Part shown: one piece after another, positions 23,001 through 63,590 of the stretch | How positions within the stretch are numbered: the stretch's first letter is position 1 | Layout: each line of letters begins with the position of its first letter | DNA from: Patiria pectinifera | Lineage: Eukaryota > Echinodermata > Asteroidea > Valvatida > Asterinidae | Assembly (NCBI GenBank): GCA_029964075.1 | Contig: CM057130.1 | Coordinates: 372,001-436,000, forward strand | Length of the DNA stretch: 64,000 nt | Direction: 5' to 3' | The notes under the pieces: model-generated | Told to the model about the DNA's origin: nothing | Database searches by the model: none | The model's input: only the letters and a program-made list of their open reading frames with translations | Program-made: the position numbers and the translations under genes

Positions 23001-26000
23001 TTTAAGAGGTGAACACATCTTGGATCTTGCACAATTTTGGGGGGCGGAGCTTGATTTTTCAAAAAGGGGAGTGCAAAAAATAAAAAACTCAGAAAAACTG
23101 TACTTAACATCCATTTTCCTTTGTTCTTCATGCTTGAAATAAACTTAGACGTGAGAAATAACTTTAGGAGAAATAACACGTTCAAATTGTGCAGCAGCAG
23201 GATTCCAGTCGAACCAGTGAGTTTGGTGGTTTGAGACATCATCTTACATTGAAAGACATCATCTTACATTGCCGACGCGCATGGCTATGGCGACGCGCGC
23301 GCATACCAGAAACCAGAGCCTTTTTTGGCCTAATAATCGTTTACTTCGTTTCGTATGAATAAAAAGGAGTAAATGCTTCAGATTTCATATATGCACTTGT
23401 CATTTACAAGGCTGGGTTGGGGCAACCTTGAAATTATAAAGCAAAATAATTCTGCGCATAAACTACTGCATTTATTAAAGTTCATAAAGTACAAATGATA
23501 CCATATGTTTGTATGAATAAAACATGGCATTTGCTTTTTCTACCACTTTCGAAGCATTTACTCGCATCTGTATGAATGAAAATTAAGCAAACACTTTTAC
23601 TTAATACCATTTGCTCTTGAGTAAATGGCCTGCAAAATGTAAAGCTTTACACGTTTATAAGTTTGCAGAAAATAAAACTATCGTAACTGAGACGGAAAGC
23701 GGCACAGGGGAGGGTCACGTGCTGGAGGACCGATACAAAAAAAAGAGCATCAAACGTGACGAACGCAATGCCGTTTACGTGCACAATGCGCTGTGCATGG
23801 TCTACACGTGGATTGGGTTTTCAGTCCCTACCTGATTCCGTGGGTTTTCCCCAGACTATTCTTCTGGGGTTTTCCTCCCACCTCTAAAACTGTAATTTCT
23901 TCTCATTGTCTTCTCTCTACGGTTTGTTTCCGGGGTTTGCGAGCTACAGTGCCTGGGGCATGCACTTTTGAGGATCCTTGGTTTCATTACCAGAAAAATT
24001 GTTATTTATCGTTTACTTCGTTTCGTATGAATATAAAGGAGTAAATGCTTCAGATTTTAAATATGCACTTGTCATTTACAAGGCTGGGTTGGGGCAACCT
24101 TGAAATTATAAAGTAAAATAATTCTGCGAAAAAATTACTGCATTTAATAAAAGTTCATAAAGTACAAATGATACCATGTTTGTACGAATAAAACATGGCA
24201 ATTGCTTTTGCTACCACTATGAAGCATTTACTCGCATCTGTATGAATGAAAATTAAGCAAACACTTTTACTAAAAACCGTTTGCTAAATTCTGAAAATAA
24301 TTACTTTTTACCTTTAAGCTTTTGCTACACTATAAGCGTTTACTTCGTTTCTTATGAATAAAAAGGAGTAAATGCTTCAGATTTCAAATATTTACTTGTC
24401 ATATTTCAAGGTTGGGTTGGGGCTACCTTGAAAATATAAAAGCAAATAATACCATACGGTAGTTCGTATGAATAAAAACTGCCATTTGCATTACTCCCAT
24501 CTGTATGAATAAAAATTAAGCAAAGGCTTTTACTGAAAACCATTTGCTCTTGAGTAAATGGCCTGCAAAATGTAAAGCTTTACACGTTTATAAGTTTGCA
24601 GAAAATAAAACTATCGTAACCGAGACGGAAAGCGGCACTGGGGAGGGTCACGTGCTGGAGGACCGATACAAAAAAGCGCACCAAACGTGACGAACGTAAT
24701 GCCGTTTACGCGCACAATGTGCTGTGCATCGGCACCCATGGTCTACATGTCGATTGGGTTTTCAGTCCCTACCTGATTCCGTGGGTTTTCCCCAGACTAT
24801 TCTTCTGAGGTTTTCCTCCCACCTCTAAAACTGTAATTTCTTCTCATTGTCTTCTCTCTACGTTTTTTTTTCCGGGGTTTGCGAGCTACAGTGCCTGGGG
24901 CATGCACTTTTGAGGATCCTTGGTTTCATTACCAGAAAAAAAATTATTTATCGTTTACTTCGTTTCGTATGAATATAAAGGAGTAAATGCATTTTAAATA
25001 TGCACTTGTCATTCACAAGGCTGGGTTGGGGCAACCCTTCAAATTATAAAGCAAATAATTATATGTTAATCGCGTAAAATTAATATTAACAAAGTTCATA
25101 GAGTACAAATGATACCATGTTCGTATGAATAAAACATGGCATTTGCTTTTACTTCCAATTTTGAAGCATTTACTCGCATCTGTATGAATGAAAATTAAGC
25201 AAACACTTTTACTCAAAACCATTTGCTAAATTCTGAAAATAATTACTTTTTACCTTTAAGCTTTTGCTACACTATAAGCGTTTACTTCGTTTCTTATGAA
25301 TAAAAAGGAGTAAATGCTTCAGATTTCAAATATTTACTTGTCATATTTCAAGGTTGGGTTGGGGCTACCTTGAAAATATAAAAGCAAATAATACCATACG
25401 GTAGTTCGTATGAATAAAAACTGCCATTTGCATTACTCCCATCTGTATGAATAAAAATTAAGCAAAGGCTTTTACTGAAAACCATTTGCTCTTGAGTAAA
25501 TGGCCTGCAAAATGTAAAGCTTTACACGTTTATAAGTTTGCAGAAAATAAAACTATCGTAACCGAGACGGAAAGCGGCACTGGGGAGGGTCACGTGCTGT
25601 AGGACCGATACAAAAAAGCGCACCAAACGTGACGAACGTAATGCCGTTTACGCGCACAATGTGCTGTGCATCGGCACCCATGGTCTACATGTCGATTGGG
25701 TTTTCAGTCCCTACCTGATTCCGTGGGTTTTCCCCAGACTATTCTTCTGAGGTTTTCCTCCCACCTCTAAAACCGTAATTTCTTCTCATTGTCTTCTCTC
25801 TACGGTTTTTTTTCCGGGGTTTGCGAGCTACAGTGCCTGGGGCATGCACTTTTGAGGATCCTTGGTTTCATTACCAGAAAAAAAATTATTTATCGTTTAC
25901 TTCGTTTCGTATGAATATTAAGGAGTAAATGCTTCAGATTTTAAATATGCACTTGTCATTCACAAGGCTGGGTTGGGGCAACCCTTCAAATTATAAAGCA

Positions 26001-35830: not shown

Positions 35831-38289
35831 GTAAGTTGGCCTAATTACGGTTTGTTACCAAATGTATGTGCTTCTTTCTTCGGTGAAGCTGAAAGTTTTC
35901 CAATTCGCTCTTTTCACACTTCCGCTATGGGCATGCAGAGGCTCGATCTGGCAACGTTGTACACAATAAATGTAGCCGGTTCAGCGATTCCCGTGTCGGG
36001 GTTCAGATCACTGAACCGGCTATTTTTATTGTGTAAAGTTGCCAGATCGAGGCTCTGCATGCCCAATGCATGAAAAGAGCGAATAGCAAGGTTTACCCAA
36101 GACCCAGCTCTGATGAAGTTATGGTGCTGAAATCTACTGGGAAGGGCCTACTTCGAAATAACTGCTTATTGTGTTCAGCGTATTAATGCAATGCAGTACT
36201 GATCTAATTGTCAACATGAGCGGTATCAAAACTATGGTAGAGAGAGGCTTAGCATTTTAAGTCATCCTGGAGCTTTTTCGTAATAAGGGAAATGCCGCCT
36301 CCCTCAGAAGTGGGCAAGGCTTGTTAGTAAACCATAATCCTTCAATCTATGTTCTGGGGTCGCACTGGTTGAACTTTGTTTTCTTCTTATGTCTGTTGTT
36401 GCGTTCGGCTGTCTATTTAGAACCATATTTAATTTGGCCTTTTTGTTTCCCATGCAGTCAGGTAGATGAGGCCAAGTCTTCATCACTGGTGTCCATCCAC
36501 AGCGTGAAAGAGAATAAGTTTGTTGGCAAGCTTGCTGGGAAGGCACGGTCGTGGATTGGTCTGAATGATAGGTGAGAAGCATTTATCGTAGGCTAATATG
36601 AATGAAAGATGATACCTAATTGAAAATTCATACAGGCCTCAGCCCTCATCAACCATAAACATTATTCAATCTACACAAACTTCATCACCATCATCGCCAT
36701 CGTCGTCACCACCACCATCGTATCTTTACCATCACCACACTGATCATAACCACCATTTCTGCTATCACTTTCAATAGCGACATAATATTACAACATTATT
36801 TCTATGAAAAAAAACAACTCCAAAACGTATCGCTATTACGCGAAACATAACGTTGATGAAGTAAGATGAGGCAAAGTTGCTTTACCAAGATTTACCACGC
36901 CCACTTCGGGTCAACATGCAAATTTGAGGTCAAAGTACTACATTAGTATATAACCCTTTTAACCGGCATTTGTACGAATTCGTACGATATATGAATATGC
37001 ATTTCGAAACCTGACTGTATAATGAACCCCTACTCAAAAATACGTCAATTGAGGGCTTTACGACTCCACCCATCTAGCGGGTGCCGCGCGAAGCGTGGCA
37101 ACCCGTTAGTCATTCATAAATACCTAAAGCTGTTTACCATTCCTATTGGTCGTGAGCCCGTCACGTTGGTGGTTTAAAACGGTTGATAAAACACTGACTG
37201 GTTGTAAACACTTTTTCCCGGTGTCACATGAAATTTGGACAACTATGAAATTAGGTCCCTTTTACCCTTTTATTGGTTAAACCCTCGCACGTGACCAGCC
37301 ACTCTCCTAGTCACTCTTTAGGTCCGTATTTCATAGTCCTAAATTCACACGCGTTTTGCGCCACATTGCGCAGTACGCGCCATACACGCGCCAATCTCCA
37401 ATATCAATGTAAGGAGATTCTTAGTACTACTCGCGCGAGGCACATAGCTAGAGGGTTGTTTCACTAAAACATGAAATAAAATTGTTCAACAAAATCGTTG
37501 GAAATTTATAATTTTTGACTGTGGCTAATAGCTTTTGCACATTCAGGAAGTCGTGCGTACTTCGCGAGCGAACAGTACAGTCAGTACGCTCACCCTGTGT
37601 GTCCCGTCCACGGCAAAGGAATCTAATAAAACCACAGAGCTATATTAATTTAATATAGCTCTATGAATAAAACCTAGACACAACATTTGATCTCGCGTCT
37701 GTGAGCAACATGCTGCGCGTGTAGAATATGTCAATTATTACACGAACGCCCTTCATTGGCGGGACGTGTCGCACAAGAGAGGGGGTCTCAATACGCGCGT
37801 TATTTGAAATCATCGGCTGCGTGCGTACCTTATGCGCTTAACATATCGGCTCAGGCCGCGTGACGCAGCCTGTTTTGCTCACACAATTCATAACGTAAAA
37901 GCAGTAAATGTCGTGTCTAGGTTTCATAAAATGTCTATGGTCCACGGGGCTTTCGAAAATGGTAAAAACACGCCCTCTTTTGTTGGCGTACGGAGCCCAT
38001 TGTGTCCACCATCTCAAAACCTTATCATTCCATATGTCCTCTCAAACTCAAACCTAGACTCAAACCTCATTATTATTCGTGTAGGATCACTGAGGGGAAG
38101 TTTGAGTACACGGACGGGTCTCCGTTTACCTACGACGCATTCCCGCCTCCTGAGCCAAACAATGCAGGCCGAGGCGAAAACTGCGTAGAAATCAACAATA
38201 GTGGCACCCTCGGACGATGGAACGATCTCCGGTGCAGCGTACTATTACCGTTCATCTGCCAAATGTGGCCTACGTACAAAGAAAAGTAA
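35664..38289 (+). CDS. Secreted C-type lectin, 161 residues, three exons
   Basis: Exons 35664-35830, 36458-36571 and 38085-38289 splice with clean GT/AG borders (phase 2 at both junctions) to 486 nt. The product starts with a signal peptide (MNVQFSLVLLLTLFSC) and is then one C-type lectin domain: CPDGWSLMDNYCYRF, the WIGLND motif, the Ca2+/sugar-binding EPN (in PPPEPNNAGRGENC) and WND (in LGRWNDLRC), and the final Cys pair (RCSVLLPFIC). EPN with WND predicts calcium-dependent binding of mannose or GlcNAc-type sugars. A small single-domain secreted lectin of this kind would act outside the cell, for example in immunity or adhesion (inference). An AATAAA lies at 38624. TAA is read as the stop, although the bases gtaagg overlap it and could be a donor. 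Confidence 0.9.
35831..36457 (+). other. Lectin intron 1 with hairpin element
   Basis: 627-bp intron. It contains the 182-bp hairpin at 35903-36084. The open frame running out of exon 1 into the intron (reaching 36073) is an artefact. Confidence 0.75.
35903..36084. repeat. 182-bp hairpin (MITE-like)
   Basis: Ends attcgctcttttca against tgaaaagagcgaat. The arms pair through gggcatgcagaggctcgatc, tggcaac, ttgt and gccggttca, with a loop of about 20 bases near 35985-36005. The stem is long and nearly perfect, so it is young or under selection. No target duplication is evident, and no second copy was seen in this window. Confidence 0.85.
36458..36571 (+). CDS. C-type lectin exon 2
   Basis: 114 nt after tttcccatgcag. 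It encodes SQVDEAKSSSLVSIHSVKEN and then KFVGKLAGKARSWIGLND. The WIGL motif is the core strand of the lectin fold, and SLVSIHS is the usual helix-strand block before it. Confidence 0.92.
36572..38084 (+). other. Lectin intron 2
   Basis: 1.5 kb without exons. It contains an ATC/ACC-rich microsatellite (about 36670-36760) and a 27-base near-perfect palindrome at 37636-37662 (agagctatatta arms). The stretch 37060-37850 is CpG-richer than its surroundings. Confidence 0.6.
37636..37662. repeat. 27-bp palindrome
   Basis: agagctatatta and its exact complement separated by three bases (att). Could be a short hairpin or the joined ends of a small inverted-repeat element; no other copy was noticed. 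Confidence 0.7.
38085..38289 (+). CDS. C-type lectin exon 3: sugar-binding site
   Basis: 205 nt after ttcgtgtag, ending at TAA. It encodes ITEGKFEYTDGSPFTYDAFP and then PPEPNNAGRGENCVEINNSG, followed by RWND and the last Cys pair. All calcium-site residues expected for an EPN-type lectin (E, N, E, N, D) are present. Confidence 0.92.
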
Positions 38290-40837
38290 GGCCTTATGAC
38301 CCTCGTGTACATCACCATCATGGCCTGTTGACTTGAATGATGTAGTCTATGTTCAAGGCGGGATTTTGATATATTCCACTTACGCACATTGGTCTCTACA
38401 AAAGCATCATGGCATTGTCTTAAATTCCATCTGAAGTCCCGTTTTAAAAAGAAAGACTAGATGTTTATAAATGATCTTCTCTCCAAAGATACTGCCGTCT
38501 TTGATTAATTGGATTGTCACGTGACTATTATGCAAACATAACATAACGTGTGTGATAGGTGACAAGCGGCAGAGATGTGCCCTCTGAGCCTCCAAAACAC
38601 CACGTGATCAAAGAATACTGTGAAATAAAATCCAAGATGGCGGTATCCGTCCGGCAGTCTATAGACCAATCTGGGCATGCTGTCATATCTATCACGAAGG
38701 CCCCCTTCAATGGCGAAAGCATTGTGCTAGCTATTGTTAAGATACACAGGACAGTTGCCTTGGTACAATAGCATGCACAATGGTTCCTCGATTGAAAAGG
38801 GGGCCTCGTGTGTGAACAGTGATCACGTGACCAGATTCGTCTATATATAGGCATACACACGCTGACTCCTCTCCTTTCGATTGATGGTATCACTTCGTTT
38901 TCCTCCGCATAAAGTTTTAATTAATGTAGTGAGACGTCTTTTACGAGGCACCGTACAATTGGCACACAGCTTAGAAAAATGTATACAAACGCGCACTCAG
39001 TGCCGTAAACAGCGAATATCATCCCTTTTCTGCCTGCACACCAAAGTGTGCATGGAGGCCTAGTTCACAACAGCTGTACACTGGCCAGGCGTTCGGGGAA
39101 CCGTTGAATCTTAGGAACCTCACTTTGAATCTGGAAACTTTAGAAATACAAACTTTGTGATTTAATATATTTTATCATTGGCAACTGTGTCACAACTTAT
39201 AGAGCTAGAAACTGAATCTATTATCTTATCAATACTTTTTGTAACAGTTCTTTTTGAAGGTTAAAATTGAGATCAGGTGTTAATTTAAACTAATGTAATC
39301 TATTTTTGTGAACAAGTTCATGAGACCAAGCATAATTTGACTCCTGCTTTGAGTTGTTTCTGTTTGTCTTGGGTTGTTCTTGGCGTCCTTAAAATCTAAT
39401 CATTTGAGCGGACCTCCTTACTGGCGTACCGCTACATTAATCAAGATAATTATGCTCCTATAAGATCGCTAGATATGCTCTCTGTTGAAATTGCACAACC
39501 ACCAAGAAATTAAATCAGGTCTGGACTTGATAAAGGTTTCAGCGTCGTCAGTAATATGCCACTTTTATTTTGCCACCACCACTTTAGCATTTTAAATATA
39601 CTTGTTTCCATTGATTAAATACATATAAAAATATAATGATCAGGTACCTCCCCCCCCCATTATAATGCCCTCCCACCACGGTTCATACTCGTTAGTATCA
39701 CATTCATATGTTGGTTGAAGAGACGTCCATTGTACAGTGCAGTTTCTTGCCACCATTTCAAATTCGTATAATAGATCGATTTTAGTATTTAAAAAAAATA
39801 ATAAACCATTAAATTACCATATTTTAGGTGCTGAATTAATTGTCATTTAAACTGTGTAAATATTTTGCTATTTCTTTATATTTTCACTACGAATAAAAAA
39901 ACGATTGTAATCTTTCAAAGAGATTCAGCATGATAAAAAAAATTCCCCAAATGATTAAACATACATACAATTAAACATGTGATATGATAATCATGCCTTG
40001 ATATTTGGATAATATGGAAATGACAACAGAGTGGCAATCGTGTCAATTCAGTCGTGAAAAAATATATGTTTTTCTATTTCTTATAATTTCACAAAGACCA
40101 AAAAGCGACTTTAGTATTTCAAAGCGATCTGCAGCATAACAACATTCCCCAAATGATTAAAGATGCTTACAGCTAAACATTTCAGATTCCATCCATACCT
40201 TGATATGTGATTAACGGTGGTTTGAATGGCAAATCAAGTCAATTCAAACTTTTTCGCCAAAAATCACAACTCTGACAAATTATTATTATTGTTTATTCGG
40301 CAAAGGCCTAAAAACAAACAAACAACGAAAATCCCAAAATACCAACCCAAGAACGAAAGCCAGACTCGTATGCCTGAAAAAGTTTACCTAAAAACTGTGA
40401 CCCAAAGGCCTTCAATTCAAATACATCTGGCTACACACAAGATATAAATATGGAAAAAAGCTATAGAAAGCTATAAAAACTATGTACCATGAGCTAAACA
40501 AAGAAAGGAAAGGCCTACGCACAATCATTCAAACTGATTAGTGATGTTGGAGCATTTGTTGGACGGTACAACATGTGAATATACCATGTGGAGCGAGAGT
40601 CTCCAAAAACAGCATTGGTTCTAAGAACAACCAGAGGTGTTAACTGGACGTTTCAGTCATTGTGCTCTGACCATCATCAGGATAATGCCTAAACCCTAGA
40701 AAGGAAATCTATGTATCTAAGAACTACTTTTGTTTTTGATAGATAGTCACTTCTGCTATAGAGATCAATAACATGGCTTGTCAGTTGAACAAAGACTGGA
40801 ATTGCGATGTGACTTGATAATCTGGATGTCAACAACT
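38290..40837. other. Intergenic region between lectin and DRE-TIM/EF-hand gene
   Basis: The two genes converge here, so this stretch holds both 3' untranslated regions. AATAAA for the lectin lies at 38624, and a minus-strand AATAAA (TTTATT at 40292-40297) could serve the other gene. A MITE-like copy lies at 38659-38850. The rest is AT-rich with no supported gene. From about 40620 the sequence belongs to the duplicated segment. Confidence 0.55.
38659..38850. repeat. MITE-like inverted repeat, copy 2
   Basis: Better preserved copy of the family at 3245-3415. The arms pair from ctatagaccaatctgg through gaaggcccccttcaatg to attgaaaagggggcctcg and ctatatatag, with a loop containing gctattgttaagatacacag. 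It also contains a CACGTG word in the right arm. Confidence 0.7.
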
Positions 40838-41282
40838 CTAGTCCTTAAGGAGTTCATCCCTCATGGCAGGGATGAGCCCCTTCCTGAACGTGATATCCAA
40901 CAGCTCCTGGGTATCCTTGATGTTTGGGTACTCATGCAAGGCCCACTTGAGATACACCAGAAACTCGCTCCAATCCACCTGCCCGTCTGCATCCATGTCA
41001 ATGGCCTGCAGAGCTTGACGGGTGTCGGAGCACCGGTAGCAGGCAAAGTAGGGCGCCATGAAGCCATTGTAGAAGGAGTCGTACTGCAGCAGTTCATCAC
41101 CTTGCACTTCATCTTTCAGGTCCCAGGTGTCCCAGATCTCACGTACCTCGGAGAGCATCCTCTCGCCGTGCACGTTGTTCAGCTTCATCTTCTCGATGAT
41201 GTCACGCATCTTTTCGGTGACTTTGCCTCCGGCCCTGTCGAAGAGGAGAGCCAGGCCAACCTCACTCATGTACTCTTCCTTC
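40838..41282 (-). CDS. DRE-TIM/EF-hand gene, exon 4
   Basis: 445 nt after the acceptor cactccag, ending at TAG. It encodes KEEYMSEVGLALLFDRAGGK, an all-helical stretch with Cys-rich YFACYRCSDTRQ, and the EF-hand IDMDADGQVDWSEF, ending MRDELLKD. FDRAGGKVTEKMRD before it may be a degenerate first EF-hand, since EF-hands usually pair. The long plus-strand frame across this exon is an antisense shadow. Confidence 0.88.
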
Positions 41283-44200
41283 CTGGAGTGATACAAACAT
41301 GGAACAAAGTAAGCGTCATCAATGACAACGTGTCAAGTGTTATGGCTCAAATTATGGCATACAATTACACAAATTACCTGTTGTTTCGAAGATCCTCCAG
41401 CATGACTTCTTTCATCTTTTGAGCTTGGTCAAGGGTGAACAGCGGATCGTCGCCGTAAAGCTCAATCAACTGCAGACGGATCATCTCATTGGATGCCAAA
41501 GAAGTGATCCTCTTGGGCGCCTTTTCTCCAAAGAAGTCAGCCAAGTCAAAGTCTTCCTTATTCAGCCCCAAGACGAAGTCCAAGGCTCTCTCCCCATACA
41601 CCGGCTGCTTGAGGTGCGGGTCTTGGCCGGTGGTGATCCTAGTCACGTTGATGGCTGCCTTCCGAAGGTAGGAGCAGTTGTAGCTCTTAAGGATCTTCTT
41701 GTTGCCAAGGCGGATGAGGTTCATCATAGTGACGCAGGTTGATGCGTTGCCCATGGCAGCGCCTTCAATGCAGATACTGCCCCAAGTACCATCCGCACCA
41801 CACATCAAACTCTAGAAAACATAAAGATTTGAGATTCAGAATCATATAATTAGATATCAGCATTTTTATTCCAAACCTGAATAAATTCGCACATCCAAAC
41901 TTTGTCACTAATTAAAACACTCGGGCGCTATAAAAAAGGTTTCCCAAAGTCATGGAAAAATCCTGGAATTTTGTTGTTATACAAGGAGGCATGGACAATT
42001 GATAATACAAGAAAAAAGTCATGGAAAAAATCATGAAATCATGACTTCCAGTTGCATTCCAGTTTATTATACCTCCTCTTTATGCATGTATGTTCTGTAC
42101 TCTCTGTGTAAAACATTCCTAGGTTGACAGTTAACTTGTAGCACAGTTATTAAGTTAAGCACGCCTTGAGTTGTTACATGATAGCTTGATGTAAAGAAAT
42201 CCCTGGCGGCCAGTCAACCTCTTTATGGCGTTGCGCTTTGCATGTTCAATGCGCCACTGTGGCTCAGTGGACTTGTGTTTTAAACAGGGAGCGGCGTCCC
42301 TTGCCTCAGTGTGACGTCTGGCCAGCGTAATGGCTCTTAAGAAGCTAAAACAGTGTAGAAATTGGTCACAGAAAACCCTTATTTAGTCCTGGACGAGTCA
42401 TTTGAATATTGATGTATTTTTCCGACCGACATTGATGATATTTGCTAGTGAACAATAGTCTTCTGTAATCTCGGGCAGTAAGCATTTTTCATTGAGTGAA
42501 TGTAAAACAAATAAGTGGATATCATCGTCCACTTCAAGTTAACCTGGAGGGGCATTACTGGCCATACGTGTTCTGATTGTTGAAAAATGTTCGTTAAATG
42601 TATCAGCAATGTTGGTGAGATCATCTACAAATTCAATTCCCCATCCTGGGAAAGAATAGTCTTTGGAATAGTTTTCTGTTTGTTGGAAAGAACATCTATT
42701 AGTGTTTTCCATATAATCGATGAGTTGCCTTTATTTTCCTCGATGGTTGATCTAAAGTATTCGCTTTTCTTGCTGCAAATTTTTCCAGTGCAGTGGTCAA
42801 GTTTCGCAGCTTTTAGTATGCGTTCTAATCATTTTGTGAGCCTGAACGGTTAGCGATTTTATTTGCACGATCTCGCTGTCGCATAAGTTTTAGAATTTGC
42901 CCATTGAGCTAAGGCAACGATGCACCACGAATACGTTTTGATTTCATTGGTGGAATGTTGTTCATAATAATACTCATAAACAAAGAGTGCCACATGGACC
43001 ATGGTTCATTTACATCTTGACAATTAAGCACATGTTCCCATGGGGCATTAAGGAGGTCGTCTTGAAAAGCGTCACTGTCTTTATCTTTAAAACACCTCAA
43101 GTTTATTGAACGGCCTTCTTTGGGGGGGGGGCTTTCCAAATATGGAGACTGTAAATATGATAGTGGTCACTAATAAGGACAGGTAGGACACCACTTTCGC
43201 TTACAAGTTCAAAATGAGAGCTAAACATTACATCAATTGTGGTTTTAGTAAATTCATTAACACGGGTAGGTTCATGTATACGTTGCGTCATTCGGAACAA
43301 ACTAAAACAGGTAGATTGTCGGTTCTGGTTTGCTTATTTTGTATTTTGCAGATACCTTCGTTTTTCTAAAAAAAAAAATTCCATCTGCAATGTGTGCAAT
43401 CGCTCGACATTTTGGCGCCCGGGTATACTCCAAAAGCAGGTTTTACTTGATGATAGTAGACAATATTGTCTCTGTATTATGAAGCCCGAAAAGGGACAGG
43501 GTGGAATTTTTTTTGGCATTTGCTAATTCGTTCGCACGAATTCCTAATTGGTTCGCACGAATTCCTAATTCGTTCGCACGAATTCCTAATTGGTTCGCAC
43601 GAATTGCTAATTCGTTCGCACGAATTGCTAATTCGTTCGCACGAATTGCTAATTCGTTCGCACGAATTACTATTTCGTTCCCACGAATTGCTAATTTGTT
43701 CGCACGAATTACTATTTCGTTCCCACGAATTGCTAATTCGTTCCCACGAATTGCTAATTCGTTCGCACGAATTACTATTTCGTTCCCACGAATTGCTAAT
43801 TCGTTCGCACGAATTACTATTTCGTTCCCACGAATTGCTAATTCGTTCGCACGAATTACTATTTCGTTCCCACGAATTGCTAATTCATTCGCACGAATTA
43901 CTATTTCGTTCCCACGAATTGCTAATTCGTTCGCACGAATTACTATTTCGTTCCCACGAATTGCTAATTCGTTCGCACGAATTACTAATTCGTTCCCACG
44001 AATTGCTAATTCGTTCGCACGAATTACTATTTCGTTCCCACGAATTGCTAATTCGTTCGCACGAATTACTATTTCGTTCCCACGAATTGCTAATTCGTTC
44101 GCACGAATTACCAACTCGTTCCCACGAATTACTAACGCGTTCCCGGATCCACGAGTTTGATGTCTGGTGGACCCCCGTGCACCCCCCCCCCCCCCGAACT

Positions 44201-47200
44201 AATTTTCACCAATTTTTTCGGGTGCTTCAAGGGTCTTGATTTTGTGGGGGTGCCTTGTAGACCATATTTGCGCCCATCCTGGCCGCCATCTCGAATTCGA
44301 AGCATGAAAGCAAAAAAAAGGATACCCGAAATAAAACCTGTGAGAGTCAAAAACATAATTAATTAACAATTTTATTGATGCTTTTATCACACTTTTTGGC
44401 TTATGTAGGTTTTCCCGGCCAACTTCACCAATTTTTCATTCAATTTAACGCCTGGCTTGTTCAGTTTAGATTGAAATTGAAAAATCACGCAGATCGTCAT
44501 TCGACAATCAAAAAGAATCATTCGATTTCACTATCCGAGCAATCTATCGCCTTTTAGCTTCACTCGTCCCTGTAAAAGGTGCATTAAAAGTATCGTGTTG
44601 TTCATTCAAATTCGTCTGAACCAGTAGTAAGCGGTTGATCGGGCATTCCTTTTCATTAATGAGCAATCATTATTTCACATTTTTGTCAAGATGTTTTAAG
44701 ACTTCCTGCATGTAAAATTCTGAATTATCTCGGCCCCGGCGTAAATCATATCTGATGTCTTCAATCCGTAAATGTGCACCTCTATTTCTTAATTAAAGGG
44801 TCCGTGAATGATTTTTTTCTCATGAATACATTTTGTGCAACTTTCTACTACTCTAAAATGTATGAAAGATATTTTGACATCCTTTTTTTGGTTAGTCTTA
44901 TTGCACGTCTTTAACATTTAAAAGTTCCATGCTTTTCTGTTGCTGTGATGTGATTTCAGGAAGACACTGTTCAGTTTAGGGGGTTTCTTTCAAATTATTC
45001 ACCCAAAATTTGCTAAGAAAACACTTTTGAGAAAGGATTGCTCATTGGCTTACTGCCAAGTATACTGACACAACAAAGAATCACCAAAGAAAAGAAATCG
45101 TAGCAACTTGTTTTGTGCTGAAATAGCCCAGTAACATTTATCTGCATAGAATGACATCAAAATCTTGTTGATGCGTGAATATGGAACTTTGCATCATCAT
45201 AAAAACGGAGAAAGCACCAAAAACACCCTTCAAAATGGAAAAAAAACAACATTGATAATAAGGTTAAAATGTGACACAAAGATGTGTTTTCCAGGTTTGC
45301 ATTGAACAACTACTTTGCATGGGCCCTTTAATTAAGTGTTCGGTCAGACATACGCAAGAAAATATTTAAGAAATTACCCAAGAGAAGGGTTCCCCATCGT
45401 ACAACCATTGCCATATTGTAAATTTTACAGTCGCTAAGATGTTTTGGGGAAACTCAACCTCGGAGGAAAATGGGAAAATATATCACTTAAAAAAATCTTA
45501 TTAATTTGAATGACCTCATAATGAAAGTGATTGCCCATAAACGAATAAGAAACGAAAAACATGGTAATACGTTATAAGCGCACCGACGTTTGCTAATTTG
45601 AATTCGTCAACCGTCAAAAGGTTGACATTCAGTCAAAAATCTTGGCTGCTAATGCCCCCCAAATTAAAGAGAAATTTGATCATAATGTGCAAAACTCACG
45701 CGAAATTGAATGGCTGATAATGAAACTAGGGAAAACCTATATATGATTTTTCCAATTTTTTTTCCCCATTTTGGCGACCATATTGGCCGCTATCATGCAT
45801 TTGATAAAGCATGATATCGAAAACACGATACCAGAAATGAATTTGGGAGGGTACAAAACATATAACTAACAATTTCACTTGTGATTTTATCATGTTATTA
45901 GGCTGCCTTTTTTCATTTTTACCAATATGGCGGCCTTATTAGCTACCAAATTGGCCGCCATCTTTAATTTGAAGCATTATAGGAAAAGAAAATTCCAGAA
46001 ATGAGTTTTTGAGAGTCTAAAACATAATTATAACTAACCATTTTATTTATGCTTTTATCACATTATTTGGCTGATATATGTCTTTTTTCCCCCAGTTTTT
46101 ACCAACTTTGGCGGCCATATTGGCCGCCATCTTGGATATCTCCTTCTCATCGGATTTGTTTTACTGTTAACATCCAAAATGTGTTTTAGGACGCTAAAAG
46201 GCACCCCCAAAATTGGTGAAAGTTAGTTCTTGGGGGTGCACGGAGGTCCCCCATACATCTATATCTCATGGATCCGGGAACGTGCCGTGCCAATTCGTGC
46301 GAACGAATTAGGAATTCGTGCGAACGAATTAGGAATTCGTGCGAACGAATTAGGAATTCGTGCGAACGAATTAGGAATTCGTGCGAACGAATTAGTAATT
46401 CGTGCGAACTAATTAGCAAATGCCAAAAAAAATTCCACCCTGTCCCTTCCCGGGCTTCATACTGTGTCTTTGTGTTGAAAGTAGACAGTATTGTTATTAA
46501 CTTGAAAACATAATGTCATGGAGTATGGTTATGGCACAAATCAAAAGGTCTGGTTCTGAATTTCTTGTCGGTTGGAATTCCTTGTAATTATAATATGTTT
46601 ACCAGCCTGTAATCACGGCGATGTTATGCCTCAGCTTATCAGTCATGCATATACGGCAGCTAATTTAAAGTGAAAGGGATAAAGGATATTTTGAAGGGTT
46701 TCATAACAAACGAGGTAAACGACGTCGGCTAAAAAGTACACATTTTGTGATAAAGGAAGTTGTGAGCGTTCACAACAATCTAGGAAAAGGATGGTGCGGT
46801 GAGGCCTCAATAAGTGGAGCGTGTTCAGGTTTTGTGTCGGGGTCGGTGCACTCTTTAAGTTTGGTGAAATCATACCGAATCAGACAACACCCCCCCCCCC
46901 CTGCCTATGGGCCTGCACTTTTGTGGGAGAATTAGAATCACTGATGGTCAATAAACAGCCAAAACATGCCGGCAGATGTTGAGTGTTTTTTTGCTGATCA
47001 CTTCGAGTATGGTTCTCCTTGGTTTACGGACAAACATGCACGACGTGCAGGGGCGTAGCACGGTCATTTTTATTGGGGGGGGGTTAAAAAAAATTAAAAA
47101 GGGCACTTGTACATCCGTTGTGAAATGTAAACAGGTTTTTTTTTCTCCGGACACTTGGCCTCCGTAAATACACAAGGCCTTGTGTATGAGACAAGTGCAA

Positions 47201-49821
47201 ACTAACTACCGGCCTATTTCTATACTGCCGATTATCTCTAAGATTCTAGAAAGATGGATACATTCAGCAGTGTATTCTTACCTTGATGATAGTAATCTGA
47301 TTGTTGTCAGTCAGGGTTTAGGCCCTCACACTCAACTGAAACCACATGGAGCGTGGGTAATGACAGGCACTGTGTTTAGAGATATAAGTAAAGCATTTGC
47401 GGGCCCCGAACACCACGCCGCAATTTTTGGACCCACTGTTTGGGTTGCCAAATATTTTTTTTGGCCCCCAAAAAATTGTGTTCTGGATCCCCCCTTGGTC
47501 CCGACTGAATCTCCGAGACCGCAATACTTTTTTCCCCGATGAAAGTGACCGCATCAATGAGACGATCAATTGAGACGAGTCAGCAAAATTATACAAAACC
47601 ATTGGTTCGTCCTCAACCTATACACGTATATCCAATAACGCTGTTGACCGTCAATCCCTTTCACAAAAGTTTGTGAAGGACACGCAGATTCGCCAAGTAT
47701 TGTTGGTACATCATTTGTTATTCCGTGTTGACAAAGGGTCATTTGGTAAACAAACTCGTCCAATGAGAGCTCAAAAAGCATGCCCCTGGTCATCGAATAA
47801 ACAAAAGCCTTCAAAGTTAGAGTTCAAAGAAGTTGGAGCTCGCGCGGACTGGTGACCTCCAACTGGACATATTATTCAAAACTCCCTAAAAAGTAAACAT
47901 TTCTTCGGCGTCTTCTCTCGACTTTTCCAGGGCATGAGCTAAACTGCAGCGCCTCATGTGCACTATGGGGGAAACCTTTAGTTTCACACCAGAAAGAACG
48001 TTAGTAGGCAAGAAATCTGACCTACCTCGAGCTGTGAGGAGTCGGCATAACCGTACTTCTCGTGGATGTGCACCAGCAGTTTCCCCTTCCATTCGTTCAT
48101 ATCCATGATCTTTCGGATGTACTTGGCCCAGTTTGCGCACTCCTCTGGCACACAAAGGCCTCTGGCCTCTTCGAAGATCAACCCAAAAGGTCGGACATCT
48201 TCTGGCATCTCGGCAAGGAACTTGACCAGCTGGAAAGCCCGGACGGGTTGTACAGGCATCACATCGGACATGTCTCGCAGGTTGATCAACACCTTGGCGT
48301 CTCGATGCAGGTTGTCGTACACCCACATGATCCATTTCTTGACAAGCGCGCACAGGTCATCCATGGTGAATTTACTGAAGTCGTAGACGCCGTCGCTCAG
48401 GTCCACCTCCAGGATTGCGTTCCAGAGACCCGTCTCCTGCATCTTTTGCAATCCCACAGGAATCTTCTCGGTGTTCGGTATCCGATTTTTCACACCTTTG
48501 GAGAGAAAAAAAAAGAAAATTACGAACAAACTCTTGACACGATGAGCAAAATATTTACGTGTCAGCATTAATAAAACACGTATTTTAAAATACCGTTTTA
48601 AGACGAATTCGTTGGGGTTCGGGCTACATTTAGGTCTGGCCGGGCTGGGCTGTATTGAGGTACCGGGCCGGGTGGTTTGTATGTAATAAAGTATGGCGAA
48701 GATACAGGAGACTGGGCTCCCTGGATAACGGGTGACTGATATTCAGACTAGGTGCTTTCCATTGAGTCCCAGTATGCCATTCAGAAGCGCAGGCGGCATG
48801 CGGTGTGTAGTCGATTAAATGTATTTTACCCCGTTTTTCCATTTGACGAGGGGAAACCCCACTAACCATGATCGAAGTAATAATTTTAAATGATTTATTT
48901 TAAAGAAAACTCAAAAACACAATTTTGAACGAAATTTCGACGATTCGGACGCCACTATGTTTTGATTCTTCGTCTACTTCACACACTGTCTCTTATTTCC
49001 TCGACAGATTTCTGACAGTGTTTGTTCCGGACCACGTCTCTCCTAATACTTTTTAATGAAAGCCTGATTAAAAAAACGAAATTTTGGTAAGAGGTGTTCT
49101 CGAAATTTGACGTTTATTTTAGACCATCCTTGTATTTTTTTAAAACAATTTTGGAACAAGTATATCTTACATAAAGAGTGGTTTTGCTTACAGTTTTATG
49201 AACATTTTTGTTTTAGATGTCATGCAAAAACCCGAACAAAATGGCACACGTGGAGAATTCGCGATTAACATGCCAACGGGTACTAACCCGTTATCACGCC
49301 TCCTACCAATTAAGGCAAGTCCGCTCGGTGAATTTTGTACCTTAGCTCAGATCAGACGTTTATCCTTTCGTGTAGGATTCGTGATGTACATACAACTTCA
49401 AATTAATTAATGCAAGGGTTATTTAGTGGTGTGGTGGAGTAAGGTCGGTGAGGATTATTTTGATGGGTTTCCTCTGCCTACCTTCGGTTATCTCTGAGAA
49501 AGCGTAGAGTCCTTTACGGTCCTCTCCCTTCTCCACCAACTGCTTGACGAAGACGTCATCTACGCGTGTCATGTGGGAGAAGGAGGCCACGATAACATTT
49601 TTGAAGCCACACCGTTTCACCTCATCATACACCTTCCATTTATCCTCCAGAGTGTGACCGCGCAGCTGGCCCACTGTGCTCTCACGGATCGAGTTATCCA
49701 GGACGAACAGATCTAGATCTCGCAGAGTCTGGTACTTCTGGGTCTCTCTCTCAACGTCTTGAGTATAACCGTCAGCCAGTCTCTTCGCGCTATACCAAGT
49801 GTTCTCAAGAAATTTAAGCAT
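40838..49821 (-). CDS. DRE-TIM (HMGL-like) protein with C-terminal EF-hand, 562 residues
   Basis: Four exons on the minus strand (49482-49821, 48026-48495, 41378-41811, 40838-41282) splice with GT/AG borders and phases 1, 0, 2 to 1689 nt. The start ATG at 49821 has an in-frame TAG ten codons upstream. Residues about 35-400 resemble the HMG-CoA lyase/isopropylmalate-synthase (DRE-TIM) barrel: LDNSIRE (41-47) matches DTTLRDG, HIHEKYG (256-262) matches the HxH metal site, and GADGTWGS...GNAST fits the glycine-rich strand. The third metal-region residue (usually N of HxHND) is E here. Residues 510-521 (DMDADGQVDWSE) are a perfect EF-hand loop in a helical C-terminal domain. The substrate is unknown. 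The pairing suggests a calcium-regulated enzyme or enzyme-derived protein (inference). Confidence 0.8.
41378..41811 (-). CDS. DRE-TIM/EF-hand gene, exon 3
   Basis: 434 nt between ttatgttttctag and gtaatt. It begins SLMCGADGTWGSICIEGAAM and continues GNASTCVTMMNLIRLGNKK, the glycine-rich barrel end with a GNA word seen in HMGL-family enzymes. It then runs into a helical linker with QPVYGERALDFVLG and FFGEKAPKRITSLASNEMIR. Confidence 0.88.
43515..44150. repeat. 21-bp satellite array, left arm (~30 units)
   Basis: Units gaattgctaattcgttcgca plus c, with regular variants (cctaattg, actatttcg, ttcgttccc). In the middle the variants alternate, giving a 42-bp higher-order period. Because 21 is a multiple of three, several frames stay open on both strands (up to 257 codons); these are not genes. 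Confidence 0.95.
44265..46130. repeat. Imperfect internal repeats of the foldback element
   Basis: Copies near 44270-44400, 45770-45930 and 45930-46075 share ggccgccatc, gaaatga, gagtc(t)aaaacata, taactaaca or taattaaca, and gcttttatcacat in the same order. The stretch between the first and second copies is AT-rich and without clear repeats. Confidence 0.7.
46285..46412. repeat. 21-bp satellite array, right arm (~6 units)
   Basis: Units ggaattcgtgcgaacgaatt plus a, the reverse complement of the left-arm array. The right arm is about five times shorter than the left, so arm length has changed by unequal exchange or loss. Confidence 0.92.
47195..47404 (+). pseudogene. LINE reverse-transcriptase fragment
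   Basis: Reads NYRPISILPIISKILERWIH, then SAVYSYLDDSNLIVVSQG and, after an internal deletion, TGTVFRDISKAF. NYRPIS-L...K--E- and the F-DISKAF word are hallmark reverse-transcriptase motifs of non-LTR retrotransposons (CR1/L2/jockey-like group). Both ends are missing. Confidence 0.82.
47636..47850 (+). repeat. Dispersed repeat arm, left
   Basis: About 210 bp that recurs in inverse orientation at 52810-53015, sharing gattcgccaagtattgttgg, gtgttgacaaagggtcattt, ggtaaacaaactcgtccaat and aacaaaagccttcaaagtta. The extension agaagttggag...gcggactggtgacc (to about 47865) recurs inverted near 50100-50145. Confidence 0.8.
48026..48495 (-). CDS. DRE-TIM/EF-hand gene, exon 2
   Basis: 470 nt between ttctctccaaag and gtaggt. 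It encodes VKNRIPNTEKIPVGLQKMQE, the strand ILEVDLSDG, AKVLINLRDMSDV, GLIFEEARGLCVPEECANWA and the metal-site strand LLVHIHEKYGYADSSQLE. The alternation of strands and helices and the closing HxH fit barrel strands 3-7 of the family. Confidence 0.88.
49482..49821 (-). CDS. DRE-TIM/EF-hand gene, exon 1
   Basis: 340 nt from ATG to the donor gaaggtagg. It encodes MLKFLENTWYSAKRLADGYT, then LFVLDNSIRESTVGQLRGHT and the strand KNVIVASFSHMTRVDD. DNSIRE is the DRE-type metal/catalytic motif, followed by the expected helix (LEDKWKVYDEVKRCGF) and strand. No signal or targeting peptide is obvious, which suggests the cytosol (inference). Confidence 0.87.
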
Positions 49822-60251: not shown

Positions 60252-62958
60252 CTGAGAACCAGAGGGTTTAACTGGACGTTTCAGTTTGTGTGCTATGACC
60301 ATCATCAGTAGAATGCCTAAAGAACTACTTTTGTTTTATAAAGATAGTCACTTCTGCCTAGAGATCAACAACATGGCTTTTCAGTTGAATAAAGACTTGA
60401 ATTTCGATGTGACTTGTGATAACTTGATGCTCTGGATGCTCTATCTAGTCCTTAAGGAGTTCATCCCTCATGGCCGGGATGAGCCCCTTCCTAAACGCGA
60501 TATCCAACAGCTCCTGGGTATCCTTGATGTTGGGGTACTCATGCAAGGCCCACTTGAGATACACCAGAAACTCGCTCCAATCCACCTGCCCGTCCGCATC
60601 CATGTCAATGGCCTGCAGAGCTTAACGGGTGTCGGAGCACCGGTAGCAGGCAAAGTAGGGCGCCATGAAGCCATTGTAGAAGGAGTCGTACTGCAGCATT
60701 TCATCACCTTGCACTTCGTCTTTCAGGTCCCAGGTGTCCCAGATCTTACGTACCTCGGAGAGCATCCTCTCGGCTTGCACGTTGTTCAGCTTCATCTTCT
60801 CGATGACGTCCCGCATCTTTTCGGTGACTTTGCCTCCGGCCCTGTCGATGAGGAGAGCCAGGCCAACCTCACTCATGTACTCTTCCTTCCTGGAGTGATA
60901 CAAACACGAATGGAACAAAGTCAGCGTCATCGATGACAACGCGTCAAGTGTTATGGCTCAAATTATGGCATACAATTACACAAATTTCGAAGATCCTCCA
61001 GCATGACTTCTTTCATCTTTTGAGCTTGGTCAAGGGTGAACTGCGGATCGTCGCCGTAAAGCTCAATCAATTGCAGACGGATCATCTCATTGGATGCCAA
61101 AGAAGTGATCCTCTTGGGCGCCTTTTCTCCAAAGAAGTCAGCCAAGTCAAAATCTTCCTTATTCAGCCCCAAGACGAAGTCCAAGGCTCTCTCCCCATAC
61201 ACCGGCTGCTTGAGGTGCGGGTCTCGGTCGGTGGTGATCCTAGTCACGTTAATGGCAGCCTTCCGAAGGTAGGAGCAGTTGTAGCTCTTAAGGATCTTCT
61301 TGTTGCCAAGGCGGATGAGGTTCATCATAGTGACGCAGGTTGATGCGTTGCCCATGGCAGCGCCTTCAATGCAGATACTGCCCCACGTTCCATCCGCACC
61401 ACACATCAAACTCTAGAAAACATAAAGAAGCCAGATTTGAGATTCAGAATCATATTATTAGATATCGGCATTTTTATTCCAAATCTGAATAAAATCGCAC
61501 ATCCAAACTTTTTCACTACTTAAAAACACTCAGTCGCTATAAACATGGTTCCCGAAGTCATGGAAAAATTCTGGAAAATCCTGAAATTTAAAGCTATTAT
61601 GGAAAGTCATGGAAAAGTCATGGAATTTTGTTTGTTATACAAGAAGGCATGGATGATTGATAATACAAGAAAAAAAAGTCATGGAAAAAATCATGAAATC
61701 TTGCACAGCCATTATATGATTTATAATATTTGGCATTTTGGCTATGGTAGACTTCCAGTTTGCATTCCAGTTTATTATACCTCTGAGTCCTCTTTATGCA
61801 TGTATGTTCTATACTCTCTGTGTAAAACATTCCTAGGTTGACAGTTAACTTGTAGCACAGTTATTAAGTTAAGCACGCCTTGAGTTACATGATAGCTTGA
61901 TGTAAAGAAATCCCTGGCGGCCAGTCAACCTCTTTATGGCGTTGCGCTTTGCATGTTCAATGCGCCACTGTGGCTCAGTGGACTTGTGTTTTAAACAGGC
62001 AGCGACGTCTCCTTGCCTCAGTGTGACGTCTGGCCAGCGTAAAGGCTCTTAAGAAGCCAAAACAGCGTAGAAATTGGTCACAGAAAACCCTTATTTAGTC
62101 CTGGACGAGTCATTTGAATATTGATGTATTTTTCCGACCGACATTGATGATATTTGCTAGTGAACAATAGTCTTCTGTAATCTCGAGCAGTAAGCATTTT
62201 TCATTGAGTGAATGTAAAACAAATGAGTGGATATCATCGTCCACTTCAAGTTAACATGGAGGGGCATTACTGGCCATACGTGTTCCGATTGTTGAAAAAT
62301 GTTCGTTAAATGTATCAGCAATGTCGGTGAGATCATCTACGAATTCAATTCCCCATCCTGGGAAAGAATAGTCTTTGAAATAGTTTTCTGTTTGTTGGAA
62401 AGAACATCTATTAGTTTTTTCCATAGAATCGATGAGTTGCCTTTATTTTCCTCGATGGTTGATCTAAAGTATTCGCTTTTCTTGCTGCAAATTTTTCCAG
62501 TGCAGTGGTCAAGTTTCGCAGCTTTTTGTATGCGTTCTAATCATTTTGTGAGCCTGAACGGTTAGCGATTTTATTTGCACGATCTCGCTGTCGCATAAGT
62601 TTTAGAATTTGCCCATTGAGCTAAGGCAACGATGCACCACGAATACGTTTTGATTTCATTGGTGGAATGTTGTTAATAATACTCATAAACAAAGAGTGCC
62701 ACATGGACCATGGTTCATTTACATCTTGACAATTAAGCACATGTTCCCATGGGGCATTAAGGAGGTCGTCTTGAAAAGCGTCACTGTCTATATCTTTAAA
62801 ACACCTCAAGTTTATTGAACGGCCTTCTTTGGGGGGGGGGGCTTTACAAATATGGAGACTGTAAATATGATAGTGGTCACTAATCAGGACAGGTAGGACA
62901 CCACTTTCGCTTACAAGTTCAAAATGAGAGCTAAACATTAGATCAATAGTGGTTTCAG
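60252..62958. repeat. Segmental duplication, copy B (2.7 kb)
   Basis: Same-orientation copy of 40620-43245 with substitutions and small indels throughout, including non-coding parts. It carries exons 3 and 4 of the DRE-TIM/EF-hand gene but not exons 1 and 2. Confidence 0.9.
60445..61412 (-). pseudogene. Duplicated 3' part of the DRE-TIM/EF-hand gene (broken)
   Basis: Exon-3 copy (about 60985-61412) and exon-4 copy (60445-60889) align with the functional exons, but two lesions are visible. The codon CAA after CSDTR is TAA (60622-60624), which would remove the EF-hand. A 10-bp deletion at the exon-3/intron border (acacaaat joins ttcgaag) removes the splice donor and about seven exon bases. Exons 1 and 2 are absent. 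The EF-hand loop itself is still well preserved (DMDADGQVDWSE becomes DMRTDG... by small changes), so the copy is young. Confidence 0.9.
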
Positions 62959-63039
62959 TCTTTTTACGTGCCAGCATCCGGGGTGCGTTATACGTGTCCG
63001 GATGGTCCGGGTATATGCGCGTGGGACTTGACTAAAGGC

Positions 63040-63590
63040 TAGACCTACCCCCGACACAAAACCTGGACACGCTTCACACCATCCTTTTCCTAGATTGCTG
63101 TGAACGCTCACAACTTCCTTTATCACAAAATGTGTACTTTTTAGCCGACGTCGTTTTACCTCGTTTATTATGAAACCCTTCAAATCCTTTATCCCTTTCA
63201 CTTTAAATTAGCTGCCGTATATGCATGACTCATGAGCTGAGGCAATAACATTGCCTAGGTTACAGGCTGGTAAACATATTATAATTACAAGGAATTCCAA
63301 CCGACAAGAAATTCAGAACCAGGCCTTTTGATTTGTGCCATAACCATACTTCTTGACATTATGTTTTCAAGTAAATATCAATACTGTCTACTTTCAACAC
63401 AAAGACACTGAGACAATATTGTCTACTTTAAACAAGTAAAACTGTCACATGACCTGCTTTTGGAGTATACCCGGGGCCCAAAATGTCGAGCGATTGCACA
63501 CGTTGCAGATGGACTAATTTTTTAGAAAAACGAAGGTATCTGCAAAATACAAAATAAGTAAACCAGAACCGACAATCTACCTGTCAGCAC
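63040..63590 (-). repeat. Inverted, foldback-free counterpart of 43290-46850
   Basis: Reverse-complement match to 43290-43471 joined directly to 46466-46850: acaggtagattgtcggttct at one end and the gacacaaaacctg words at the other. The 2986-bp foldback element is missing at the junction near 63395-63420. The segment lies in opposite orientation relative to the neighbouring duplicated segment. Confidence 0.85.

Follow-up and report, generated by a model that had tools for sequence, protein, structure and literature searches.

We analysed a 64,000-nucleotide stretch of the Patiria pectinifera genome (contig CM057130.1, positions 372,001 to 436,000; this whole stretch is called the window below) and found in it a minus-strand gene at 40838-49821, whose four exons form one open frame of 562 residues ending in a TAG stop. 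Comparison with relatives confirmed that one animal-type gene encodes a DRE-TIM (HMGL-like) barrel and an EF-hand domain, connected by a linker; the gene fits ilborin, a protein first described from a sponge larva. We lean towards regarding the protein as a DRE-TIM metalloenzyme that is regulated by Ca2+ and acts on a small oxo- or hydroxy-acid, and not as a synthase of the isopropylmalate/homocitrate type. Residue numbers below are those of the 562-residue window product.

A preliminary description of this DNA had proposed a four-exon gene at these coordinates, and splicing at GT-AG sites throughout (GTAGGC/CCAAAG, GTAGGT/TTCTAG and GTAATT/CTCCAG, phases 1, 0 and 2) indeed yields the single 562-residue frame. 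The parts of the gene are listed here in the order of translation; the motifs were checked at the level of single bases.

49482..49821, minus strand: exon 1, residues 1-113 and the first base of codon 114; contains DNSIRE
49698-49681, minus strand: DNSIRE (D42-E47)
48026..48495, minus strand: exon 2, remainder of codon 114 to residue 270; mid-barrel, with H256-x-H258
48070-48062, minus strand: HIH (H256-H258)
41812..48025, minus strand: intron 2, 6.2 kb, containing an inserted inverted-repeat element
41378..41811, minus strand: exon 3, residue 271 to the first two bases of codon 415; barrel end (GADGTW, GNAST) and linker
41799-41782, minus strand: GADGTW
41751-41746, minus strand: GN
40838..41282, minus strand: exon 4, beginning with the last base of codon 415 and running through residue 562 to the TAG stop; linker end, which the EF-less relatives share, and EF-hand domain from about residue 435
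40964..40999, minus strand: canonical EF-hand loop DMDADGQVDWSE, with D510, D512, D514, G515, V517, D518 and E521

Bacterial relatives were decisive for the gene model. One of them, L008, was found by scanning prokaryote genome contigs with a degenerate DNA pattern (H-x-H-[charged/Asn-type]-x-x-G, 12 codons, G-A-[DN]-G-x-W), which returned three loci, one a true relative and two chance hits. L008 lies on a 6123-base contig (JAAXKB010000050.1) of the gammaproteobacterial metagenome-assembled genome SW42618_bin_3; its 456-residue frame is cut by the contig at the 5' end and is 54% identical to the window protein over 450 residues, EF-hand domain and loop included. Two further relatives, L013 (435 residues, genome G457) and L015 (430 residues, genome G531), come from the same order as the genome of L008. 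They consist of barrel and linker with no EF domain, show 27-30% identity, and stop at the start of the EF domain, at window residues 433-435. Exons 2, 3 and 4 match L008 with 43, 58 and 63% identity, respectively (E 3e-42, 1e-50 and 1e-67). Exon 1 matches L015 (E 8e-16) and L013 (E 2e-11), and each of exons 1, 2 and 3 matches both (E 8e-16 to 6e-8). Since exons 2-4 match L008 and exons 1-3 match L013 and L015, the four exons fit one protein. The length of intron 2 and the repeat element inside it could suggest that exons 1-2 and 3-4 belong to two genes wrongly joined, or that the EF part was misassembled. However, the single bacterial open frame of L008 covers exons 2, 3 and 4 end to end, the EF-less relatives match exons 1, 2 and 3, and the published ilborins, in the available text, have 560-610 residues and an identical domain order (PMC8864356); the chance of such an artefact appears negligible. 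Wrong exon joining was accordingly rejected on the exon-by-exon matches, and the bacterial relatives span the exon junctions between the two halves.

Searched on its own, the 562-residue protein matched the Pfam family HMGL-like (PF00682) with 20.2 bits (E 4e-4; cut-off 29) and three EF-hand models with E 0.001 to 0.007 (best 19.2 bits, cut-off 28). For the open frame around exon 4, the best three of six EF-hand models gave E 2e-4 to 1e-3 (best 21.3 bits, cut-off 28), and the EF-less relative L013 matched PF00682 with 26.8 bits (E 4e-6). NCBIfam returned nine weak matches, all to models of 2-isopropylmalate, citramalate or isopropylmalate/citramalate/homocitrate synthase; the best score was 15.7 bits against a cut-off of 455, and no equivalog or subfamily cut-off was passed. 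All these matches lie below the curated cut-offs; the domain finding is real but remote, and relatives were needed to secure it. The fusion of an HMGL-like barrel to an EF-hand, as proposed in the preliminary description, thus found profile similarity for both domains, and the match to L008 puts it beyond chance: L008 has the whole EF domain (63% identity), and the loop DMDADGQVDWSE of the window aligns with DMDHDGDVDWSE in L008. Among solved structures, the family profile matched homocitrate synthase (HCS) best (3a9i and 2ztj, E 4e-4), followed by isopropylmalate synthase (IPMS; 3eeg, E 3e-3). Comparison by hhalign gave 97.5% for citramalate synthase, 53% for HMGL, 42% for LeuA2, 2.9% for HMGL-like and 0.1% for LeuA1, DmpG and PC, with profiles too thin to rank the groups. 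The group labels used here (LeuA1, LeuA2, CimA, HMGL, DmpG and PC) were assigned from motifs, and three proteins were checked by NCBIfam.

The preliminary description knew of no named animal enzyme pairing such a barrel with an EF-hand, but the same architecture had been named ilborin in 2022 by Borisenko et al. (PMC8864356). According to the available text of that paper, ilborin is the major protein of the flagellated cells of the sponge larva; ilborins A-D of Halisarca dujardini have 569-586 residues, and orthologues of 560-610 residues occur in sponges, cnidarians, ctenophores, one flatworm and echinoderms, with none seen in choanoflagellates or chordates (PMC8864356). The same text describes two cyanobacterial proteins with the ilborin domain structure, a predicted cytosolic location, HHpred matches to HCS 2ZTJ and HMGL, an HCS-like Glu36 and the same ligand types, and its authors propose a role in Ca2+-regulated energy metabolism (PMC8864356). 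As far as that text goes, the window protein shares with ilborin its length, the N-terminal aldolase-type TIM barrel, the remote match to 2ZTJ, the single canonical C-terminal EF-hand, and an Arg-Glu pair plus two His (PMC8864356). It was likened to ilborin by architecture, length and residues, and the offset in numbering is not constant (Arg35/Glu36, His205/His207 and Ca site 514-526 in the ilborin text, PMC8864356, against 46/47, 256/258 and 510-521 in the window). The likeness of the window barrel to HCS and HMGL rests on sequence profiles.

PMC8864356 was the sole full-text publication on ilborin that we found, supplements and most subscription journals being outside our reach. Literature on HMGL-like or HMG-CoA lyase-like proteins with an EF-hand was not found, and among listed papers on homocitrate synthase with an EF-hand only PMC8864356 looks to concern such a fusion. 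Neither the EF-less bacterial sister nor its GGDEF neighbours nor the missing His described below turned up in these literature searches, none of which was aimed at them. Added here to the ilborin paper are an EF-bearing gammaproteobacterial relative, EF-less sisters, a missing His and a decaying second copy. L008 is gammaproteobacterial, whereas the bacterial cases in the available text of the paper are cyanobacterial (PMC8864356), and it has GH where the window has GN. With L013 and L015, the window protein shares barrel and linker, D-x-S-[LI]-R-E, HxH, GADGxW and NL-x-R-x-GN.

We then considered which residues the barrel would use. In the alignment with 2ztj, R46-E47 corresponds to R12-E13 and H256/H258 to H195/H197, so that DSTLRE and HGH of 2ztj align with DNSIRE and HIH of the window; hhalign with citramalate synthase places the Arg-Glu residues together likewise. 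R46 and E47 are kept in all three family rows that reach the N-terminus, and H256, H258, E143, N185, D188 and E222 in all four family rows. For MAMS, a relative of IPMS, the available text reports metal binding by Asp90, His288 and His290 and a need for Arg89 (PMC11532901). The acidic metal ligand of the window protein would be E47, adjacent to R46, rather than D42, which the preliminary description had placed among the putative metal-site positions; E47, H256 and H258 would then complete a metal site. That description had further taken DNSIRE as a sign of a possibly altered activity. This argument fails, since Arg-Glu is the homocitrate synthase form (DSTLRE), and the ilborin paper, in its available part, says the same of Glu36 (PMC8864356). 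Neither is the E of HIHE a telling change, since the four aligned family members show E, K, A and S directly behind HxH, a position that is therefore not constrained. A candidate argument from the Glu that precedes HxH by two residues in 2ztj, a position held by Leu in the family, was dropped: 66 reference rows, of the IPMS/citramalate type and others, have Gly, Ser, Ala, Val or Pro there. As a separate observation, a megaplasmid of Burkholderia stagnalis (locus L017, 3998-5707, plus strand) encodes an ordinary citramalate synthase, above the NCBIfam cut-off, whose D-C-T-L-R-E likewise puts a Glu at this position.

The departure that the preliminary description overlooked is, judged from the alignments, a real one: the post-barrel His of the acetyl-CoA-condensing relatives is missing. 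In MAMS, His388, 98 residues past His290, is the likely general base according to the available text (PMC11532901). Of 77 reference rows, 64 carry H-x-x-G-x-H with the last His 93-100 residues after HxH; these 64 belong to the 66 rows that have D-x-[TS]-[LI]-R-[DE]-G, of which the remaining two are labelled DmpG and HMGL-like. Four LeuA2-type rows have a His at 92 (GSHQDA). A post-barrel His 92-100 residues after HxH is thus found in 68 of the 77 rows, the nine others being labelled HMGL, HMGL-like, DmpG or PC. No His occurs 86-130 residues after HxH in any of the four family rows (window, L008, L013 and L015); the nearest are not shared: the window has H336 at 78, and L013 has H337 at 85. By alignment, the metal site is complete and the acetyl-CoA base is gone, which argues against a synthase of the IPMS/HCS type and leaves a lyase, an aldolase, a transferase or a ligand sensor.

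A synthase dependent on acetyl-CoA (homocitrate, isopropylmalate or citramalate type), with an EF-hand instead of the regulatory domain that senses amino acids, would explain why profiles place the protein nearest to HCS, IPMS and citramalate synthase, why it has Arg-Glu as in HCS, and why its C-terminal domain sits at the regulatory-domain position. Nevertheless, the base His388 of MAMS, in the part of that paper available (PMC11532901), has no counterpart in the family over the range searched, and the best NCBIfam score falls far short of its cut-off (15.7 against 455 bits); we consider such a synthase very unlikely. Condensation with acetyl-CoA, as in IPMS, HCS and citramalate synthase, is probably not the reaction of this barrel. 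Of the preliminary proposal of a calcium-gated lyase/synthase or a non-enzymatic derivative, Ca2+ gating remains a sensible guess, whereas a synthase of the IPMS/HCS kind has become unlikely because the acetyl-CoA base is absent.

Comparison with known enzymes follows the same lines. HCS (2ztj), IPMS and citramalate synthase share with the window protein the barrel family, Arg-Glu or Arg-Asp, HxH and the post-barrel subdomain; the window linker is the counterpart of this subdomain in IPMS and HCS, without its His. Where these synthases carry a LeuA-type regulatory domain, which is C-terminal in IPMS-type synthases, the window protein has its EF-hand domain. HMG-CoA lyase has an HxH strand followed by x-x-Y-G, a GN, and a Cys in the glycine-rich loop before GN, and it is not known to have a linker or EF part. 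The window protein shares the HxH strand followed by x-x-Y-G and the GN, and its C284 lies near the position of the lyase loop Cys. C284 stands eight residues before N292; its counterpart is Cys in L008 and Pro in the EF-less relatives L013 and L015. HMG-CoA lyase has Asp where the window has E47, according to the ilborin text (PMC8864356).

The preliminary description had called for a phylogeny, and a tree of 37 rows was computed. It included 33 of the 77 reference rows; references were cut at 480 residues, the PC row was trimmed, and the EF domain was removed from the window protein and L008. The four family members form one group of their own with support 100/100, apart from the 33 references, and within it the two EF-bearing members (the window protein and L008) group at 99/98. 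Since the branch to the references is long (4.47), the nearest subgroup of the family is not fixed by the tree. IQ-TREE flagged unusual composition in the window row and four references, and long branches in three references. In the AlphaFold2 model of L008, predicted at low confidence, strands and helices alternate over the better-scored residues (about 30-145), and the counterparts of E143, N185, E222 and H256/H258 fall in predicted strands, with that of D188 one residue past. The first seven ranks in Foldseek were IPMS, HMG-CoA lyase, MAMS and HCS. The predicted structure is compatible with a barrel, but is not proof of one.

From the residues conserved in the alignments and the intact Ca2+ loop, we infer metal binding, Ca2+ binding, catalysis and a regulatory link between the two domains. 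The barrel would hold a divalent metal by E47, H256 and H258, with R46 positioning a small oxo- or hydroxy-carboxylate, and would most likely make or break a C-C bond next to a carbonyl by enolate-type chemistry. The EF-hand domain would bind Ca2+ at D510-E521 and switch or tune the barrel through the linker.

Several observations weigh against this proposal. The Arg-Glu segment of the 2ztj alignment scores 0.8 bits when taken alone, and the cut 5' end of L008 leaves it short of R46/E47, its N-terminus being unseen. The residue after G291 is Asn (N292) in the window and His in all three relatives. Just one EF loop of the window protein is canonical, and EF-hand matches among solved structures are weak (E 0.11 or more). 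AlphaFold2 gave a mean pLDDT of 50.7 for L008 with the window exon rows, and 47.8 for exon 4, a poor result that we attribute to the shallow alignment; Foldseek returned no match at E <= 0.001. Finally, a barrel that has lost its catalytic His may have lost its activity as well. The protein would then be a sensor or scaffold, that is, a Ca2+- and metabolite-responsive signalling component whose barrel binds metal and carboxylate without turnover. The absence of the post-barrel His from all four family members is in line with this alternative, as is the nucleotide signalling context of the bacterial members seen, L013 and L015 adjoining PAS-GGDEF genes and L008 a class III cyclase/AAA gene. On the other hand, wherever the rows extend far enough, the metal triad, the Arg and several more carboxylates do not vary, and only three bacterial neighbourhoods were seen. 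We regard a sensor or scaffold as possible, yet less probable than a Ca2+-regulated metalloenzyme.

The neighbourhoods are as follows. Downstream of L008, on the same strand, a 1358-residue frame matches Guanylate_cyc (class III cyclase, E 4e-16) and AAA_16 (AAA domain, E 1e-16). Animal contamination as the source of L008 was rejected on the intron-free open frame beside this cyclase/AAA gene, on one strand. The G+C content of L008 is 0.512 against 0.535-0.561 in five other pieces of its genome, and L008 may therefore have been misbinned from another bacterium. The PAS-GGDEF genes that adjoin L013 and L015 are 70% identical to each other, and the remaining flanking genes differ by eye. In bacteria, the association with cyclase genes in the three neighbourhoods seen suggests a signalling link. 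In G531, the PAS-GGDEF gene is followed by a SpoIIAA-like gene (L015 3861-4244, plus strand, E 8e-28). A short frame in genome G475 (L016 1465-1866, minus strand) covers profile positions 294-396, i.e. barrel end and linker, and is apparently the remnant of a family member.

In total, 1513 of 97,973 genomes were sampled, and the rarity of the family is an estimate from this sample. With L008 as query, the one match at E <= 1e-10 among 369 genomes of its class was its own genome, and among 97 closer relatives two genomes matched at E <= 1e-5, that same one and G457. A profile search of 244 genomes of the order of G457 found four at E <= 1e-8: G001 (the genome of L008), G457, G531 and, with a short match, G475. 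In three phyla (398, 201 and 198 genomes), 22, 45 and 48 genomes, respectively, matched the family profile at E <= 1e-6. L008 scored 830 bits in these samples and, among the matches listed, all others scored 43 bits or less, in frames of 342-877 residues; we took these, not individually checked, for ordinary IPMS/citramalate relatives. The window protein, or a piece of it, found no relative in prokaryote contigs, viral contigs, phages or plasmids; the search of prokaryote contigs with the whole protein also missed L008, so that such misses weigh little as evidence of absence. A 97-residue piece and an alignment likewise gave no match in viral contigs, nor did tblastn in phages and plasmids, and a DNA-pattern scan of viral contigs returned four loci with no convincing relative (best BLAST E 0.019 over 26 residues). 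Addition of the EF domain, rather than its loss, is the simpler reading.

Searching the window by tblastn revealed a second copy of exons 3 and 4 at 61412-60445, with two parts.

60987..61412, minus strand: second copy, exon-3-like; 10 bases across the exon end and donor deleted
60445..60889, minus strand: second copy, exon-4-like; a CAA codon at 60624-60622, six codons ahead of the EF loop, has become a TAA stop

The 10-base deletion over the end of exon 3 removes the splice donor. The duplicated stretch comprises 40629-43249 and 60257-62959, with two long blocks 93 and 97% identical and two short ones 88 and 91% identical. Over the exon parts, the copies differ by 12 silent and 11 replacement or nonsense changes (dS 0.070, dN 0.016). 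The second copy is a tandem duplicate in decay; counterparts of the first exons did not turn up within the window and would have to lie outside. The element in intron 2 of the gene, about 3 kb (roughly 43473-46463), is bounded by inverted ends, and a minisatellite of about 21 bp lies in each of them. The second copy (near 63409) is without this element, and the pieces that flank it (43307-43472 and 46464-46796) are inverted there.

Elsewhere in the window we noted an inverted pair at 20543-20852 and 20995-21304 (310 bp, 97% identity), a fold-back-like structure, and a tandem direct repeat at 23554-26234 with units of about 0.94 kb that are 91-95% identical. A C-type lectin exon lies at 37966-38286 on the plus strand (Lectin_C, E 3.9e-10), and by eye 36261-36572 resembles a lectin exon upstream of it, with no Pfam match. 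A tRNA-like sequence at 12340-12415 on the minus strand (Rfam 33.5 bits, not found by ARAGORN) is possibly a tRNA-derived repeat. By eye, an open frame at 47168-47539 on the plus strand resembles a reverse transcriptase fragment, with no Pfam match.

As to origin, ilborins might descend from a bacterial metabolite-responsive signalling family, in which a DRE-TIM barrel acts together with nucleotide cyclases of the GGDEF or class III kind and the EF-hand was added in bacteria before animals acquired the gene by transfer; we hold this tentatively and think it rather unlikely. If it is true, the animal protein would integrate Ca2+ and metabolite signals, and we know of no other animal protein of this type. 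The missing acetyl-CoA base narrows the candidate reactions. Since bacterial relatives exist with and without the EF-hand, ilborin can be tested in laboratory bacteria, where the action of the barrel alone may be told apart from the contribution of Ca2+.

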